Shown here piece after piece: positions 13,932-57,746 of a stretch of DNA of 64,000 bases (position 1 is the stretch's first letter; the number at the start of each line of letters is the position of its first letter). The stretch is taken from the NCBI RefSeq assembly GCF_900101335.1, contig NZ_FNKA01000003.1:1-64000 (forward strand), given 5' to 3'. The stretch comes from Quadrisphaera sp. DSM 44207 (lineage in GTDB: Bacteria > Actinomycetota > Actinomycetes > Actinomycetales > Quadrisphaeraceae). The notes beneath the pieces were generated by a model that saw nothing but the letters and a program-made list of their open reading frames with translations, had not been told where the DNA came from and searched no databases. The translations under genes were made by a program, and so were the position numbers.

Positions 13932-14561
13932 TCAGCGGCCGCGGTCGATCCACTCCTGCAGGTGCGGCGCCTCGTCCCCGATGGTCGTCGAGCCCCCGTG
14001 CCCGGTCAGCACCGTCGTGGCCGGCGGCAGCGCCAGCAGGCGCTCGCGGATCGACTCGATGATCGTCGGGAAGGAGCTGTAGGAGCGGCCCGTGGCTCCC
14101 GGCCCGCCGGCGAACAGCGTGTCGCCGGTGAACACCGTGGCCAGGCCCGGCGCGTAGAAGCACACCGAGCCGGGGGAGTGGCCCGGGGTGTGCAGCACGT
14201 GCAGCTCCTCCCCGCCGACGGCGATCACCTCGCCGTCCTCGAGGAGGGAGTTGGGGGAGGAGTCCGGGTGCACCGTCGCCCACAGCGCCAGGTCGTCGTG
14301 GTGCAGGCGGGTGGGCGCCCCGAAGCGCTGCCCGGCGTCGGGTGCGCGCCGCACGTGGTCGTCGTGGGCGTGGGTGCACAGCACCGCGAGCACCCGGCGC
14401 GGGCCGACGACCTCGGCGATCGCCGCCAGGTCGTGGGGCGCGTCGATCACGATGCACTCCTCGTCGTCCCCGACCACCCAGATGTTGTTCTCCACGTCGA
14501 ACGTCTCGCCGTCGAGCGTGAAGGTGCCCGAGGCGACCCCGGAGTCGATGCGCGCGCTCAC
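13932..14561 (-). CDS. Metallo-beta-lactamase-fold hydrolase, candidate S-formylmycothiol hydrolase partner of MscR
   Basis: The 209-residue enzyme has the full binuclear metal site: THAHDDH (HxHxDH), a His in HTPGHSPG, the bridging Asp in FTGDTLF and a final His in LTGHGG. It resembles glyoxalase II-like hydrolases. It lies directly downstream of the S-(hydroxymethyl)mycothiol dehydrogenase, as the mycobacterial Rv2260 neighbour does next to Rv2259, suggesting it hydrolyses the formyl- or related mycothiol thioester. That role is inferred from context. Translation starts at a GTG preceded by GGAGGAGGAG, which lies in the second copy of a perfect 68-bp duplication. Confidence 0.87.
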
Positions 14562-14629
14562 AGCTCCTCCTCCGTCGTCGCCGTGAGCGTCGCCCTGTGC
14601 TCGACGGTTCGCGCGCTCCGCGCGCTCAC
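14558..14629 (-). CDS. Coupled 23-codon mini-ORF (copy 2) before the metallo-hydrolase gene
   Basis: It starts with GTG after a GGAGGAGGAG ribosome site and ends in a TGA that overlaps the GTG of the downstream hydrolase. Sequence begins [11 protein letters not shown] and ends TTEEEL. It arises entirely from a tandem duplication, so it is probably a translational relay rather than a functional peptide. Confidence 0.35.
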   Translation of the reverse strand: MSARSARTVEHRATLTATTEEEL

Positions 14630-14698
14630 AGCTCCTCCTCCGTCGTCGCCGTGAGCGTCGCCCTGTGCTCGACGGTTCGCGCGCTCCGCGCGCTCACA
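14563..14698 (-). repeat. Perfect 68-bp tandem duplication carrying ribosome site and start codon
   Basis: Bases 14563-14630 and 14631-14698 are identical over all 68 positions. Each unit carries a GGAGGAGGAG ribosome-binding site followed by a GTG. Lack of any divergence implies a recent event or ongoing homogenisation. Confidence 0.95.
14626..14697 (-). CDS. Coupled 23-codon mini-ORF (copy 1) immediately after mscR
   Basis: It encodes the same 23 residues as copy 2. Its GTG overlaps the mscR stop and its TGA overlaps the GTG of copy 2, so ribosomes could pass mscR to copy 1 to copy 2 to hydrolase by termination-reinitiation. Peptide function is doubtful. Confidence 0.35.
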
Positions 14699-15779
14699 GG
14701 ACCACCACCGAGCGCAGGACCTCGCCGCGGCCCATCTTCGCGAACGCCTCCTCGACGTCGCCGAGGCCGACGGTCTCGGACACGAAGTCCTCCAGCGGGA
14801 AGCGGCCCTGGCGGGAGAGCTCCGCGAGCACCGGGAAGTCGCGGCTGGGCAGGCAGTCGCCGTACCAGCTGGACTTCAGCGCGCCGCCACGGCCGAACAC
14901 GTCGAGCAGCGGCAGGGTGATCTCCATGGACGGCGTCGGGACCCCGACGAGCACCACCGTGCCCGCCAGGTCGCGGGCGTAGAACGCCTGCCGGTAGGTC
15001 TCCGGGCGCCCGACGGCGTCCACGACGACGTCCGCGCCGACGCCGCCGGTGAGCGCGCGGACCGCCTCGACCGGGTCGCTCTCGCGGCTGTCGACGACGT
15101 GGGTGGCGCCGAAGCGGCGGGCCTGCTCCAGCTTCCGCGGGTCGACGTCGACGGCGATGATCGTCGTGGCGCCGGCCAGCGCCGAGCCCGCGATCGCCGC
15201 GTTCCCCACGCCGCCGCACCCGATCACGGCGACGCTGTCCCCCCGCGTGACGCCGCCGGTGTTCACGGCGGCGCCGAAGCCGGCCATGATCCCGCACCCG
15301 AGCAGGCCGGCCGCCGCCGCGGGCACGGCCGGGTCGACCCTCGTGCACTGGCCCGCGTGCACGAGGGTCCTCTCGGCGAAGGCGCCGATGCCCAGCGCGG
15401 GGCTGAGCGGCGTGCCGTCGGCCAGCGTCATGGGCTGGGCCGCGTTGTGGGTGTCGAAGCAGTACCAGGGCTCCCCGCGCCGGCACGCGCGGCAGTGCCC
15501 GCACACCGCGCGCCAGTTGAGGACGACGAAGTCGCCGACCGCGACGTCCGTGACGCCCTCCCCGACGGCGGAGACGGTGCCGGCCGCCTCGTGCCCCAGC
15601 AGGAAGGGGAAGTCGTCGCTGATGCCGCCGTCGCGGTAGTGCAGGTCGGTGTGGCACACCCCGCACGCGGCGACGTCGACGACCGCCTCGAACGGACCGG
15701 GGTCGGGGACGACGACGTCCGCGACCTCGACGGGGTCGCCCTTGCTGCGGGCGATGACGCCCTTGACGGTGCTGGCCAT
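14694..15779 (-). CDS. mscR: S-(hydroxymethyl)mycothiol dehydrogenase
   Basis: This 361-residue zinc-dependent medium-chain dehydrogenase oxidises the formaldehyde-mycothiol adduct with NAD, the actinobacterial counterpart of glutathione-dependent formaldehyde dehydrogenase. It has the catalytic zinc site [13 protein letters not shown] and GHEAAG, the four-cysteine structural zinc lobe ([15 protein letters not shown]) and the Rossmann motif IGCGGVGN. The start LNWRAVCG and APALGIGAF-type segments closely follow known MscR proteins. The ATG is 6 nt after a TAGCGT box, implying a leaderless transcript. It is divergent from the APC transporter/formamidase pair and coupled to a metallo-hydrolase. 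Confidence 0.92.
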
Positions 15780-25279: not shown

Positions 25280-25424
25280 GGTGTGTCCTCCCACCGGCAG
25301 GAACGTGCCGGACGATCCGAGTGAGGGGCCTGCGCGGGCCGGGCGGCGCGCGCAGAGGACGCGGCGACCGTCGGGACGCCGGTGTCCGCGATGGAGTCTG
25401 CCCCATGCGGCGCGGCGCGGGAAG

Positions 25425-25508
25425 CCCGGCGCGGCAGGCCCGGCGCGGCAGGCCCGGCGCGGCAGGCCCGGCGCGTCAGGTCCGGCGCGTCAGGCCCGGC
25501 GGGAGAGC
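25425..25508. repeat. 14-nt tandem repeat (about 6 units of CCCGGCGCGGCAGG) at the end of otsB
   Basis: Units start at 25425, 25439, 25453, 25467, 25481 and a partial one at 25495. Units 1-3 are identical; 4 and 5 carry point changes. The array starts in the intergenic gap and runs across the otsB stop codon. Confidence 0.85.
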
Positions 25509-47890: not shown

Positions 47891-50800
47891 TCAGGCCGAC
47901 CCGGAGCGCACGACGGACCGCAGCGAGCGCAGCGCCACCGACAGCGGGGCCAGGTCGCTGCGCTCCTGGCCCCGGACCTCCGCCAGCGTGGTGCGCACCC
48001 GCTCCAGCTGCCCGGCGTTGCCCCGCTCCCACGCCTCCACCCGCTCCGCCGGGTCGCCGGTGCCGGTGGCGGTGCCGGTGGCGGTGCCGGTGGCGGTGCC
48101 GGTGGCGGTGCCGGTGAGCACCGCGCGGGTCAGCCCGGCGAGCACGGCGTACAGGTCGTCGCGCAGCGCCGCGCGCGCGAGCGCCTGCCACCGGTCGTCG
48201 CGCGGCAGGCGGCTGATGCTCGAGAGCAGCGCGTCGGCGCCGTAGCGCTCGGAGACGCAGAAGTACACGGGCGCCACCTCGTCGGGGTCGAGGCCCTCCG
48301 CCGCGGCCACCTCCGTGATGTCGAGCAGGGAGAACGCGTCGAGCAGGCCCGCGCAGCGCTCGGCCAGCTCGCGCGGCACGCCCTCGTCGACGAGGAGCGC
48401 GACGGCCCGCTCGAAGCGCTCCCGCTCGGCGCCGACGAGCAGCTCCCCGACCCGTCCGGACCACCGCTGCACGATCGGGCGGAACCGCGCCACCTCCGCC
48501 TCGACGTCGACGTCCTCCTTGAGGTTCTGCACGAACCACCGCGTGGCGCGGTCCAGCAGCCGCCGCAGCTCCAGGCGCAGGCGGGTCTGGACGGCGGTGG
48601 GCACGGCGCCGTCCAGGGCCGCGACCTCGGCGGCGAAGCCGACGGCGTCCACGACGTCGCGGCAGGCGGCGTAGGCGCGCACGACGTGCTCGGGGCTGGC
48701 GCCGGTCTCCTCGACCGCGCGGTGCACGAAGGTGATCCCCGCGCGGTTGACGAGGTCGTTGACGAGGCAGGTGGTGACGATCTCCCGGCGCAGCTGGTGG
48801 TGCTCGAGGCGGTCGGGGTAGCGCTGCACGAGCTGGTGCGGGAAGTAGTCGCGCAGCAGGTGGCCGAACGCCGGGTCGTCCGGCAGGGACGTCGCCAGCA
48901 GGTGCGCGGCGAGGGCGTTCTTCACGTGCGCCATGAGCACGGCGAGCTCGGGGGAGGTCAGGCCCAGGCCCCGCGCGGCGCGGTCGGCCACGGCCGCGTC
49001 GTCCGGCAGCGCCTCCAGCTCGCGGTCGAGCGCGCCCTGGGCCGCCAGCGCCGCCACCAGCCGCCGGTGCACCGGCAGCATCGAGGGCGCCTGGGCGCGG
49101 GCGGTGGTCAGCAGCGCGTTCTGCTCGTCGTTGTCGCGCAGCACCACGGCCGCGACGTCGTCCGTCATCTCCGCCAGCAGCAGGTCGCGCTGCTTGGTCG
49201 TCAGGTCGCCGGTGGCGACGACGTCCGCGAGCAGGATCTTGATGTTGACCTCGTGGTCGGAGCAGTCCACGCCCGCGGAGTTGTCGACCGCGTCGGTGTT
49301 CAGGCGCACCCCGGCCAGCGCCGCCTCGACCCGCCCGCGCTGGGTCAGGCCCAGGTTGCCGCCCTCGCCGACGACGCGGGCGCGCAGCTGCGGCGCGTCG
49401 ACGCGCACGGCGTCGTTGGCCCGGTCCCCGACGTCGGCGTGCGTCTCGGTGGAGGCCTTCACGTACGTGCCGATGCCCCCGTTCCACAGCAGGTCCACGG
49501 GCGCGGCCAGGACGGCGCGCACGACCTCGGCGGGCGGGAGGCGGGTGGTGCCCTCCGGCAGCCCGAGCGCCCGCACCGCCTGGGCGGAGAGGGGGATCGA
49601 CTTCGCGGAGCGCTCGAAGACCCCGCCGCCCTGGCTGATCAGCGCCGGGTCGTAGTCGGCCCAGGAGGAGCGCGGCAGCGCGAACAGCCGCCGCCGCTCG
49701 GCGAAGGACGCCGCGGGGTCGGGGTCGGGATCGAGGAGCACGTGGCGGTGGTCGAACGCCGCGACGAGCCTCACGTGCTCGCTCAGCAGCATGCCGTTGC
49801 CGAACACGTCGCCGCTCATGTCGCCGATCCCGGCCACCGTGATGTCGGTGGTCCGGGGGTCCACGCCCAGCTCGCGGAAGTGGTGGCGCACCGAGACCCA
49901 CGCGCCGCGGGCGGTGATGCCCATGGCCTTGTGGTCGTACCCGGCCGAGCCGCCGGAGGCGAAGGCGTCGCCGAGCCAGAAGCCGTGCTCGGCGGCGATG
50001 GCGTTGGCGGTGTCGGAGAACGTCGCGGTGCCCTTGTCGGCGGCCACGACGAGGTAGGGGTCGTCGCCGTCGTGGCGGACGACGGACGGCGGCGGCTGCA
50101 CCCGCCGCCGCCCCGGCGCCTGCGGGTCCACGACGAGGTCGTCGGTGACGTCGAGCAGCCCGTGCACGAAGGTGCGGTAGGCGCGCAGCCCCTCGGCCAG
50201 CCACGCCTCCCGGTCGACCGCGGGGTCGGGCAGGGCCTTGGCGACGAAGCCGCCCTTGGCGCCGGTGGGCACGATGACGGCGTTCTTCACCGTCTGCGCC
50301 CTGACCAGCCCCAGCACCTCCGTGCGGAAGTCCTCGCGCCGGTCGCTCCAGCGCAGCCCGCCGCGCGCGACGGCGCCGAAGCGCAGGTGCACGCCCTCCA
50401 CGCGCGGGGAGTACACCCAGATCTCGTACGCCGGGCGCGGCTCGGGCAGGTCGGGCAGGCGCCGGGGGTCGAGCTTGAGCACCACGTGCGCCTTCGGGCG
50501 CCCGTCGGCGCCCACCTGGTAGGCGTTGGTGCGCAGCGCCGCCAGCACCAGCGCCAGGAACGAGCGCAGGATCCGGTCGTGGTCGAGGCTGGCGACGTCG
50601 TCCAGGCGCGCCCGCAGCTCCTCGGCGAGGGCGTCGACGACCTCGCCGGGAGCGGCGAGGGCCTCCCCGCCGGACGTCGTCCCCCGCGGCGCGAAGCGGG
50701 CCTCGAACAGGCGCACCAGCTCGCGCGCGAGGGGCGCGTTCGCCACGAGGCACTGCTCGAGGTACTCGTGGGAGAACGTCGAGCCCGCCTGGCGCAGGTA

Positions 50801-52945
50801 GCGGGCGCAGGCGCGCAGCACGACCACCTGGCGCCAGGACAGGCCGGCGCGCAGCACCAGCTGGTCGAAGCCGTCGGACTCGCTGCGCCCGTCCCACGCC
50901 GCGATCAGGGCCTCGGTGAACAGCGCGCCGGCGCCCTCCTCGACGCCGGGCGGCAGGCGCAGCCCGAAGTCGTACACCCACGCCTGCCGGCCGTCGCCGC
51001 CGTCGAGGTGGTACGGCCGCTCGTCGACGACCTCGACGCCGAGGTTGCGCAGCAGCGGCAGCACGCGCGTGAGCGACAGCGGCCGGCAGCGCACCAGCTT
51101 GATCCGGCGCTCGTCCGGCGCGGCGCCCACCGGCTGGTACAGGTGCGTGCGCACGACCCGGTCGACGTCCTCCTCGTCGCCGAGGGCCGCTGCCTCCTCC
51201 GCCACGGCCTGCACGCGGCGCAGGTCCGCCACCGCCACCTGGGCGGGGAAGTCCTCCTTGTACGCCTCCGGGAACGCCCGGCCCCACGCGCGGCGCAGGT
51301 GCGCGGCCTCCTCCTCGCCGAGCTCGGCGCGCAGCGCGTCGGCGAGGTCCTCGTCCCAGGTGCGCGTGGCCTCCACCAGCCGCCGCTGCAGGGCGTCGGC
51401 GTCGACGTCGGGCAGGTCCCGCCCCGGGGGCACGCGCACCACGAAGTGGACCCGCGCCAGCACCGACTCGCTCACCCGCGTGGTGAAGTCGACCGAGGAG
51501 GCGCCGAAGGCCTCCTCCAGCACGGCCTGCATCCGCAGGCGCACCGGCGTGGTGTACCGGTCGCGCGGGAGGAAGACCAGCGCCGACTCGAACCGGCCGT
51601 ACTCGTCGCGGCGCAGGAACAGGCGGGTGCAGCGGCGCTCCTGCAGGTGCAGCACCGCCACCGCCGTCTCGTGCAGCTCCTCCACGCCCATCTGGAACAG
51701 CTCGTCGCGCGGGTAGGTCTCCAGCACCGTCAGCAGGTCCTTGCCCGAGTGCGAGCCCGCCGCGAACCCCGAGCGCGCCAGCACCGCGGCGACCTTCGCG
51801 TCCAGCAGCGGCACCCGGCGCACGCTCTCGGTGTACGCCGCCGACGCGAACAGGCCCAGGAAGCGGCGCTCGCCGACCACCCGCCCCTGCGCGTCGAAGG
51901 ACTTCACGCCGACGTAGTCGAGGTAGGCGGGCCGGTGCACGGTCGCGCGCGAGTTCGCCTTGGTCAGCACGAGCACCCGCCGCTCGCGGGCCCGGGCGCG
52001 CACGCGCGGGGGCAGGCGCGCGAAGCTGTCGCTGCCCCGCCCGTCGCCGTCCGCCCGCCCCGGGCCCTCGTCCTGCGCCCGGGAGCGCGCCTCGCGCAGG
52101 ATCCCCAGCCCCGTGCCGGGCACCACGCGCAGCACGTCCTCGCCGCCGACCTGGGCCAGCACGTACTCGCGGTGCCCGAGGAAGGTGAAGTTCTCGTCCG
52201 CGAGCCAGCGCAGCAGGCGCTCGGCGTCGCGGGCCTCGCCCTCCAGCCCGGACGGCGGCCGCGTCGCCATCTCCTCCGCCACCGCCAGGGCGGCCGCGCG
52301 CATCGGCGCCCAGTCCTCCACCGCCGCCCGCACGTCGTCCAGCACCCGCTCGACGCCGCGGGTGATGGCCTGCAGGTCCGCGTCGTCGCTCTCGCGGTCG
52401 ACCTCGACGTGCATCCACGACTCGGCGAGCGCGTCCTGCGGCCACGACGGGTCGCGCCCGCCCGCCGGCAGGTCGGACGTCGAGACGTCGAGCACCTCGA
52501 GCAGCCGCCCCTCGGCGTCGCGCCGGACGACGAAGGTCGGGTGGACGACGAGGTGGATCGCCCGCTCCAGGCGCGTGAGCTCGGCGGTGACGGAGTCGAC
52601 GAGGAAGGGCATGTCGTCGGTGACGACCTCGACGACGGTGTGGCCGGTGCTCCACCCGTGCTCGTCCACCGTCGGCGTCAGCGCGCGCATCAGCGCCGTG
52701 CCGGGCCGCCGCTGCGCGGCGGAGCGACGGTGGCTCAGGCACGCCCCGGCGACGTCCACCGGGTCGCGCTCGGTGAGGTCCTCGTCGGCGACGTGCCGGT
52801 AGTAGCGCCCCAGCAGCGTCCGCAGCTCCTCGGCGGCCCGGCCGGAGCCGGCGGCCGCGGCGGCGGCGCGGTCGAGCGCCTCGGCGCGGGGGTCCTCGGC
52901 GTGCGAGGCGTCCTCGGTGCGCGCGCGCACCACCTGCGCGGACAT
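47891..52945 (-). CDS. gdh: NAD-specific glutamate dehydrogenase, large (about 180 kDa) class
   Basis: The 1684-residue protein oxidises L-glutamate to 2-oxoglutarate and ammonia with NAD. N-terminal ACT-like regulatory segments (about 60-700) precede the catalytic core, with [11 protein letters not shown] (catalytic/substrate Lys region), [24 protein letters not shown] and [13 protein letters not shown] long helical C-terminal region follows and ends after a Thr/Ala/Gly repeat (GTATGTAT...). It is the L_180 type used in Streptomyces and Mycobacterium, in mycobacteria regulated by GarA. GAGGAGG precedes the ATG by 8-9 nt. The gene occupies 5 kb without interruption. Confidence 0.95.
48059..48116. 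repeat. 12-nt tandem repeat (nearly 5 units of GGTGCCGGTGGC) near the end of gdh
   Basis: Four exact units from 48059 to 48106 and a partial fifth; on the coding strand they encode TGTA repeats in a linker near the C-terminus. Confidence 0.9.
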
Positions 52946-55880: not shown

Positions 55881-56279
55881 ATGGTCATCCGGCTCGCTGC
55901 CGCCCCACCCGCGGCTCCCTCGACCGTCGCGGTCGTGGACCGCGACCGCTTCTCCTCGCTCACCGGCGACCGGGCGGACGGCGTCCGGCTGCCCGCGTGG
56001 GCCGAGGCGGACCCGCGCTGGTGGCCGCTGGCGCTCGCGTGGGCGGACGCGCACGGCGACCCGGTGGCCGCCGTCCTCGTGGCGTGCCGCCACGTGCCCG
56101 GCACCGGCCGCTTCCTCGCCGTCCTGACCTCCGCGCCGGTGCTGCTCCGGGAGCCCGGCTCCGCCCCGGAGGAGGTCCTGGGCGCGTGGCTGCCCGCGGC
56201 GACCGCGCTGCTGCACCGCCGGGGCGCGTTCGCCGTGCGAGCCGGTCACGGCCGGTCCGTGCGCGAGCGTGCGCGCTGA
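55881..56279 (+). CDS. Hypothetical protein, unknown function
   Basis: The 132-residue frame begins at ATG and is Ala/Arg-rich with several Trp (DPRWWPLALAWADA). No signal peptide, membrane span or family motif stands out. The ribosome site is weak. Codon third-position GC matches real genes. Its last 34 nt overlap a small minus-strand gene. It could be a spurious frame. Confidence 0.45.
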   Translation: MVIRLAAAPPAAPSTVAVVDRDRFSSLTGDRADGVRLPAWAEADPRWWPLALAWADAHGDPVAAVLVACRHVPGTGRFLAVLTSAPVLLREPGSAPEEVLGAWLPAATALLHRRGAFAVRAGHGRSVRERAR

Positions 56280-56431
56280 GCGCGGCGGGGGCCCTCGCCG
56301 AAGCGGGTGCCGCGCGGGGCGACGAGCGGGGGCTCGACGGCCCGGCCCACGGCCGCCAGGCGACCGGCGCCCGCGCTCACGAGCACCACGGCGCCGAGGA
56401 CGACTCCGAGGACCAGCAGGAGAGCGGACAC
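56246..56431 (-). CDS. Small single-span membrane protein
   Basis: This 61-residue protein starts with GTG behind GGGAGG 5 nt upstream. It has a hydrophobic N-terminal span (SALLLVLGVVLGAVVLVSAGA, about 2-21) followed by an Arg-rich cytoplasmic tail, the pattern of small regulatory membrane proteins. It is divergent from the His-rich Clp-N/SRPBCC fusion, so it may share a regulatory region with it. No family is recognised. Confidence 0.6.
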   Translation of the reverse strand: MSALLLVLGVVLGAVVLVSAGAGRLAAVGRAVEPPLVAPRGTRFGEGPRRAQRARSRTDRP

Positions 56432-56639
56432 GAGGCCTCCCTCGATGCCGACGCGGTGTCGGCGACGAGATCCATGCTGTTCGTCCCGCGTTGCGCGGAC
56501 ATCGGTCGTCGGTGGGGACGTCCGTCAGCCTTCGGGAGGAGCCGCACGGCGCGTCGTCCTCCTGCGGAGCAGGGCCCGGAGCACCCGGGTGCACCAGAGG
56601 ACCAACGGATGCCGGCGACGCCGGCGGGAAGGAGCACCG

Positions 56640-56748
56640 ATGCACCAGCACCAGCACCAGCACGGGCACCAGCACGGGCACCAGCACGGGCACCAGCAGG
56701 GGCACCAGCAGGGGCACCAGCACGGGCACCGGCACGGGCACGGGCGCG
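56640..56748 (+). repeat. 12-nt tandem repeats encoding the His-rich N-terminus
   Basis: Repeats of CACCAGCACGGG with substitutions (CACCAGCAGGGG, CACCGGCACGGG) encode HQHG, HQQG and HRHG. Several adjacent units are identical. Confidence 0.85.
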
Positions 56749-57746
56749 CGGGGCGGAGCATGGCCCAGGAGGGCTACCGCATCCGGATGGCGGCGGCGAC
56801 CGAGGCGGTCGCCCTCGGCCACCCCGAGGTCGACGTGGAGCACCTGCTGCTCGGCCTGCTCGTCGTGGGCGGGCCGAGCGCCCGGGCGCTGATCAGCACC
56901 GGAGCCGACCTGCGCGGGCTGCGGCGGGCCGTGGCCGAGGTGGCCGAGGAGGACCCGTCCGACCCGGGGGCCGCCGAGCCGCGTGGCCCCGGGGCGCGCG
57001 CCGCCACCTGGCGCGCCGCGCCGTCCGTGCCCCTGGGCCGCCGGGCCCGGTACCTCCTGGAGAGCGCGCCCTTCCGCGGTGACGACCGCGGGCTCCTGCG
57101 GGTCCTGCTCGACGACGAGGACCGGCGCGCCCAGGTCCTGCTCGAGCACGCCGGCGTCGACGTCGACGCGCTCAGCGACCGGGTGCGGTGCGACGAGGCC
57201 CCTCCCGGTGCAGCACCGGACGCCGTCGCGGACGACCGCGCCGCCGCGGAGGACGCCGTCACAGAGGACCGCGCCGCCGCGGAGGACCACGCAGCGCTGC
57301 GCGGTCCGGCGCCGGCGGGCGCGGCCTGGGCGGAGGCCTCCTGCTCCCAGCTCGTGCCCGCCCCGGTCGAGCGCGTCTGGGCGCTCGTCAGCGACCCGTC
57401 GCGCCGGCCGCAGTGGGACTTCGCGTCCACGGCCGTCACGGTCACCGCCGACGGCCTCGAGCAGTGGACCCGGCCGGACGGGAGCGCGGTGACCCGGGCG
57501 GTGGTCCAGGTCGAGCCCGGGCGCGCCATCGCCTGGCGCGAGCACGGGAGCGGCAGCGCCGCCGGGACCGCGGACCACGGCGTCCTGCAGCTGGTGCTGC
57601 ACCCGAGCGGGCAGACCACGCGGGTGCACCTGCGGCGCAGCTGGCTCGTGCGGGGTCGGGCGTGGCGCCTGGCCGGTCCGCTGCTGGTGCGGATGGCGCG
57701 CGCCCGGCTGCGCGTCCAGGCCCACGGCATCGCCCAGGCCGCCTGA
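56640..57746 (+). CDS. His-rich-repeat / Clp-N / SRPBCC fusion protein
   Basis: The 368-residue protein has three parts. Residues 1-36 hold 15 His spaced by Gln/Gly in an HQHGHQHG-type array (likely metal-binding). Residues about 42-190 carry two Clp-N repeats (MAQEGYRIRMAAATEAVALGHPEV and LGRRARYLLESAPFRGDDRGLLRVLLDDEDRRA). Residues about 235-365 form an SRPBCC/START-like hydrophobic-ligand domain (PAPVERVWALVSDPSRRPQWDF). There is no AAA+ ATPase domain. AAGGAG lies 5 nt before ATG, firmly supporting the His-rich start. Acid/Ala repeats (EDRAAAED) join the domains. It may be a metal- or ligand-regulated adaptor for a Clp protease. I know no described protein of this layout. Confidence 0.83.
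   Translation: MHQHQHQHGHQHGHQHGHQQGHQQGHQHGHRHGHGRAGRSMAQEGYRIRMAAATEAVALGHPEVDVEHLLLGLLVVGGPSARALISTGADLRGLRRAVAEVAEEDPSDPGAAEPRGPGARAATWRAAPSVPLGRRARYLLESAPFRGDDRGLLRVLLDDEDRRAQVLLEHAGVDVDALSDRVRCDEAPPGAAPDAVADDRAAAEDAVTEDRAAAEDHAALRGPAPAGAAWAEASCSQLVPAPVERVWALVSDPSRRPQWDFASTAVTVTADGLEQWTRPDGSAVTRAVVQVEPGRAIAWREHGSGSAAGTADHGVLQLVLHPSGQTTRVHLRRSWLVRGRAWRLAGPLLVRMARARLRVQAHGIAQAA

Follow-up and report, generated by a model that had tools for sequence, protein, structure and literature searches.

ClpC uses its Clp_N domain to bind clients and adaptors. In the genome of Quadrisphaera sp. DSM 44207, one open reading frame encodes such a domain between a histidine-rich start and an SRPBCC domain, which raises the question of what a protein of this kind does and where it comes from. 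The whole stretch of DNA analysed, 64 kb long, is referred to here as the window, and the gene and its product as the window gene and the window protein.

Domain architecture and translation start

The features of the locus, by window position, are as follows.

56640–57746, plus strand: complete open reading frame of 368 aa, composed of His repeat, Clp_N, linker and SRPBCC
56628–56634, plus strand: GAAGGAG, Shine-Dalgarno-like by sequence, 5 nt 5' of ATG 56640
56642–56741, plus strand: 12-bp tandem repeat GCACCAGCACGG, 8.3 copies (TRF), encoding the His/Gln/Gly array of residues 1–34 (pLDDT 44–49)
56760–56762, plus strand: internal Met codon (MAQEGYR), an alternative start, which in the alignment falls within the coding region of homologues, immediately behind a conserved GRS
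56793–56942, plus strand: Clp_N repeat 1 (41.8 bits, E = 4.3e-10)
57027–57182, plus strand: Clp_N repeat 2, degenerate (profile match at 57093–57182, 22.5 bits, profile positions 18–47)
57345–57728, plus strand: SRPBCC/Polyketide_cyc2 helix-grip domain, residues 236–363 (Pfam, AlphaFold model and Foldseek)
56249–56431, minus strand: small divergent open reading frame with a hydrophobic N-terminus (VSALLLVLGVVLGAVVLVSAGAG...), start GTG 56431, a doubtful gene

In the Pfam search, Clp_N (PF02861) was matched in two stretches of the window protein with 54.8 bits (cut-off 20.7, E = 1e-14), and Polyketide_cyc2 (PF10604, SRPBCC) with 45.1 bits (cut-off 27.4, E = 1.6e-11). AHSA1 was also matched (E = 2.1e-6), and no AAA+ or ATPase domain was present. 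The Pfam matches thus bore out the initial annotation, which had seen in it a Clp_N protein that stands alone, carries a START/SRPBCC domain and has no ATPase. It had also counted two Clp_N repeats; both were detected, but the second is degenerate. The best PDB sequence matches of the Clp_N part were to the ClpC/ClpC1 N-domain. Codon-position GC showed a strong coding pattern over both the Clp_N and the SRPBCC part. Matches to FliH in NCBIfam were rejected as low-complexity artefacts of the His/Gln repeat.

An AlphaFold model built with 13 homologues gave a mean pLDDT of 80.7. Residues 1–36 were disordered in the model, helices at 41–184 made up the Clp_N part, and a helical linker led to the helix-grip SRPBCC domain, which ended in a long C-terminal helix (341–367). 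Foldseek matched the C-terminal domain to SRPBCC structures at a probability of 1.00 (3f08, 3cnw, 2ns9 and PYR/PYL receptors). The domain therefore resembles SRPBCC/Polyketide_cyc2 helix-grip proteins both by a match above cut-off and by fold, but it differs from them in being fused to Clp_N.

The closest homologues (a paralogue in the same genome and relatives in the genomes G057, G008 and G072) had roughly 10–18 residues before a GRS, GRT or ERS, which aligned with the GRS just before the Met of MAQEGYR; more distant homologues began near the Clp_N domain. A start at MAQEGYR (56760) is unlikely, because the closest homologues are already coding 5' of it, and ATG 56640 is therefore a plausible start. 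Translation from the His-rich side, as originally proposed, agrees with this and with the GAAGGAG before the ATG. The contrary expectation, that homologues would start at MAQEGYR and lack the array, was borne out by these closest homologues only as regards the array, which is indeed missing from them. No sigma-70 promoter or terminator was found at the window gene in a scan that is uninformative at this G+C.

The small divergent frame had been described as a membrane protein. Its hydrophobic N-terminus is there, and GAGGGAGG precedes the GTG at 56431, but its standing as a gene is doubtful. Matches were found in only one of 12 same-family genomes, the best of them weak (E = 5e-4), so that this frame may not be a gene.

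Homologues and their operon

The architecture was found to recur in other genomes, where the initial annotation had suggested looking for it. By profile search it was present in 13 of 395 sampled genomes of the class, in 9 genera, and both Clp_N and Polyketide_cyc2 were found in all 13 aligned family members. An order-level protein search returned full or partial relatives in the Quadrisphaera genome itself and in G057, G008 and G072. The paralogue lies at about 515 kb (G000:C2) and is ~40% identical to the window protein. In the phylum sample, most matches outside the class were confined to one half of the profile, as a rule that of Clp_N, and a peptide-pattern scan of the genome contigs gave only three distant Clp_N loci. 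No report of Clp_N combined with SRPBCC was found in the literature search.

At 14 of 16 homologous loci, that of the paralogue included, a gene of ~80 aa encoding a helix-turn-helix (HTH) protein was found directly upstream of the Clp_N-SRPBCC gene. At the loci examined, it overlapped the start of the latter or sat a few bases away; among the first four junctions, three were ATGA overlaps and the fourth was TGATG. This layout is called here the parent operon. The HTH gene is preceded by the operator GCAACnnnnGTTGACR, which is usually doubled. The same 14 loci that have the HTH gene carried at least one exact CAACnnnnGTTGA site, and 12 of the 16 carried two or three exact copies, with neighbours 27–28 bp apart. 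The last copy ended a few bases 5' of the ATG or GTG of the HTH gene. The exceptions were L071, with a truncated HTH gene and no operator, and L070, with neither. The genome of the window has a single exact GCAACnnnnGTTGACG site, which lies at the paralogue; a second copy, 28 bp from it, has one mismatch. The CAACnnnnGTTGAC palindromes, usually doubled, occupy the place expected for the promoter of a leaderless transcript.

Two loci showed further variation. The homologue of G072 (L034:1507–2142) lacks most of SRPBCC and keeps its last strand and C-terminal helix, and the HTH gene and both operators are intact despite the loss. Separately, a PhnD-like ABC substrate-binding gene (GAIPDQDPEVLQRLY) was seen beside the operon in two genera (L032:5504–6670 and L033:3361–4434), in one of them upstream and in divergent orientation, in the other downstream.

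The HTH profile matched RelI (9sdc) with E = 3.8e-6. Its match to the truncated ClpC2 N-domain 8ADA, whose chain ends at residue 72, was marginal (E = 0.026). RelI and the HTH region of ClpC2 have been reported to match at 99% in HHpred (PMC13284704). The RelI antitoxin (Rv2664) thus has an HTH akin to the one encoded upstream of Clp_N-SRPBCC in the homologous operons. The partner of RelI is the RelS ribonuclease, whereas the window gene has no HTH partner.

A broader search found HTH relatives in 187 of the 395 class genomes. In nearly all of the loci read (L102–L120), a stand-alone Clp_N gene came after the HTH gene, and the same operator was present at many of them; within L103–L120, mostly from the families f37 and f38, many loci had doubled TCAACnnnnGTTGAC operators just before the HTH start. 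These split operons, which belong to other genera of the class, share with the parent operon a related HTH, the operator and a downstream Clp_N. Their Clp_N protein, however, is about 200 aa long, starts with MFERFT like ClpC1 and has no SRPBCC. No description of a split operon of HTH and stand-alone Clp_N was found in the literature searched. A split ClpC2-type layout is therefore widespread in the class, with Clp_N-SRPBCC as a less common variant. In the Clp_N tree, the SRPBCC-type proteins formed a group of their own (95/93), and the stand-alone HTH-paired Clp_N proteins were placed with ClpC N-domains. Because the two types group apart, the two kinds of operon may have separate origins, each type of protein having joined the same regulator on its own. 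The window protein fell in no well-supported clade; a recent duplication of the paralogue was ruled out by the ~40% identity and by the lack of a well-supported sister relation.

The nearest described system is mycobacterial ClpC2 (Rv2667), which like the window protein has Clp_N without AAA+. Its operator, CGTCAAC-n5-GTTGACG, lies 1–2 nt 5' of the open reading frame, is often doubled and overlaps the -35/-10 region of a leaderless transcript; ClpC2 represses itself, the repression is lifted by cyclomarin binding, and the protein acts as an antibiotic sponge (PMC10030653). A later proteomic study confirmed the cyclomarin-specific rescue by ClpC2 (PMC12913811). ClpC2 and the parent operon are alike in an HTH-type partner and in a usually doubled CAAC-n-GTTG operator just 5' of a probably leaderless start. 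They differ in that ClpC2 fuses an HTH/dimerisation domain to Clp_N, whereas the parent operon has separate genes, and in the operator spacer, which is 5 in ClpC2 and 4 in the parent operon.

The window copy as an orphan

The window gene had no HTH relative, fused or adjacent, and none was found anywhere in the 64-kb window; operator matches at up to one mismatch were likewise absent from it. A search for a relic of either near the gene found none. The gene adjoins glpX, and the glpX neighbourhoods of same-family genomes from other genera contained no Clp_N gene and no relative of the window gene. By alignment, the cyclomarin-contact positions F2, F80 and E89 of ClpC1 correspond to G38, L132 and E141, so that one of the three reported contacts is kept. 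Since the F2 and F80 positions are changed, known ClpC1-directed peptides may not bind the window protein. It shares Clp_N with ClpC/ClpC1 but differs from them in these replacements, in its degenerate second repeat and in the missing AAA+ ATPase modules. ClpC2 has no SRPBCC and keeps the equivalents of all three contacts, whereas the window protein adds SRPBCC. On sequence grounds, the window gene appears to be an orphan, SRPBCC-fused relative of the split ClpC2-type system. It was not filed as ClpC2, three features of which it does not have, but it may work like ClpC2. We prefer to read it as an orphan of that family and probably an uncoupled decoy or sensor for ligands or clients, a reading to which we give about an even chance.

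Orphan status could also mean lost function, though the frame and codon bias are intact. A pseudo-paralogue in decay, that is, a copy of the second gene of the operon which was inserted beside glpX and is losing regulation and function, is unlikely, but it would fit the missing HTH gene and operator, the lack of a relative beside glpX in other genera of the family, the 5' repeat expansion, the changed pocket residues and the loss of most of SRPBCC at the related G072 locus. Against decay, the 368-aa frame is intact, the codon-position bias is strong over both domains and the ribosome site is strong. The ~40% identity to the paralogue and the placement outside well-supported clades suggest that the frame has been open for a long time.

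The initial annotation had pictured a new regulatory adaptor or competitor, a view that holds only in part. As an adaptor, the window protein would not be a decoy but would connect ClpC, by substrate-type contacts, either with ligand-loaded SRPBCC cargo or with a protein bound to SRPBCC. The binding of clients and adaptors by Clp_N domains and the suitability of a two-domain architecture for delivery speak for this, but adaptors bind the ClpC N-domain, whereas the window protein copies it. No MecA or ClpS family was among its Pfam matches up to E = 10, and the ClpC2-like split operon of the homologues resembles a self-regulating sensor. We therefore consider the adaptor frame rather improbable.

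The His-rich start had been taken for a metal sensor. The count of fifteen His in residues 2–34 was exact, and the array is the product of a 12-bp tandem repeat, whose units gave 94% matches in TRF, not a chance composition. A scan of the genome at up to one mismatch gave 24 matches, overlapping ones in the array included, with variants at about ten other sites; the reversed pattern, used as control, gave one forward and one reverse match. As judged by codon-position GC, which left the frame unclear at some loci (e.g. L052 and L054), the likely frame at the other sites was mostly Thr-Gly/Ser, and Ala-Pro in one or two cases. Wherever it could be judged, the frame was not the His frame, and no homologue of the window protein had the array in the alignments.

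Repeats of this and other kinds were seen elsewhere. At L055 (G000:C3:649900–651900), a YtxH-like small protein (MGKITFAAGAAVGYVLGARAGRERYEQ...) has a long Ser/Thr/Gly tail from a 12-bp repeat of the same type; a long His-rich alternative frame, present at this locus alone, is better read as the Thr-Gly tail of this different protein. In the window, a perfect 12-bp tandem repeat of the same class (CGGTGCCGGTGG, 4.9 copies, 48058–48116), read as (TGTA)n, lies inside a large minus-strand open reading frame (47891–52945) resembling NAD-glutamate dehydrogenase. A perfect 68-bp tandem repeat occurs in 2.2 copies at 14551–14699. A 14-bp repeat (GGCCCGGCGCGGCA) occurs in 6.6 copies at 25409–25501; its period is not divisible by three and would shift the frame inside a gene.

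The most economical reading is that the 12-bp repeat happened to expand in the His frame in the window gene; the protein most likely tolerates the His-rich start as a disordered tail of microsatellite origin. A metal-responsive Clp regulator, in which the array would bind Ni/Zn and tune a Clp_N and SRPBCC adaptor or competitor, can appeal to 15 His in 33 residues with H-x-H spacing, which would probably chelate metal in vitro, to the good ribosome site at the His start and to the translation of the closest homologues from upstream of MAQEGYR. However, the array is disordered in the model, its near-perfect repeat is prone to slippage and no metal genes were seen beside the window gene. As the array is not conserved and the repeat DNA is found across the genome, the metal-sensor reading is unsupported and we regard it as highly unlikely; metal binding may be incidental, with weak affinity possible. 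A toxin-antitoxin-like pair, in which the HTH protein would be the antitoxin, the counterpart of RelI in its pair with RelS, and toxicity would reside in the SRPBCC half, would accord with the RelI match of the HTH profile and a weak NCBIfam match of the SRPBCC domain to the Rv0910 toxin model (E = 0.039), but is barely credible given that this match is far below cut-off (13.9 bits against 100), that the orphan persists without an adjoining HTH gene and that sibling operons are entirely without SRPBCC.

Possible function and wider meaning

For the window protein, we infer a ligand-responsive ClpC decoy function from these comparisons. In the parent operon, the HTH protein would act as repressor together with its Clp_N partner. 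Repression would be relieved when a client binds. The client could be unfolded protein, or else a ligand, either a small hydrophobic molecule or a peptide, accommodated in the Clp_N groove, the SRPBCC pocket or both. The derepressed Clp_N-SRPBCC protein could then accumulate as a decoy, sponge or holdase-like competitor for ClpC N-domain ligands or clients. The window copy retains the effector half alone, would be transcribed from a promoter of its own and has a good ribosome site, and for this reason is probably an uncoupled, differently expressed decoy or sensor. It could also pair in trans with the HTH protein that the operon of its paralogue encodes.

A more specific version is possible but doubtful. 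The operon may be a two-input sensor, whose Clp_N half would monitor ClpC clients or ClpC-directed peptides and whose SRPBCC half would respond to a small hydrophobic ligand, with both inputs controlling a repressor at the doubled operators and the window gene being a constitutive decoy split off from it. For ClpC2, the operator has been proposed in the literature to be read by a C-terminal arginine helix. If the two-input reading is true, the N-terminal HTH of ClpC2 would read the operator, rather than or together with that helix.

Several antitubercular natural products act on ClpC N-domains, and one of these is blunted by ClpC2. Across the class, the operator and HTH described here are found with Clp_N encoded by a separate gene, and in some genera a ligand-pocket domain has been added to Clp_N. 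Such a pattern suggests that a switch for Clp surveillance, in which sensor domains can be exchanged, is widespread, and the clear operator motif offers a means of finding further examples. DNA recognition is predicted to reside in the HTH part, and the window copy would represent a naturally occurring, uncoupled decoy.
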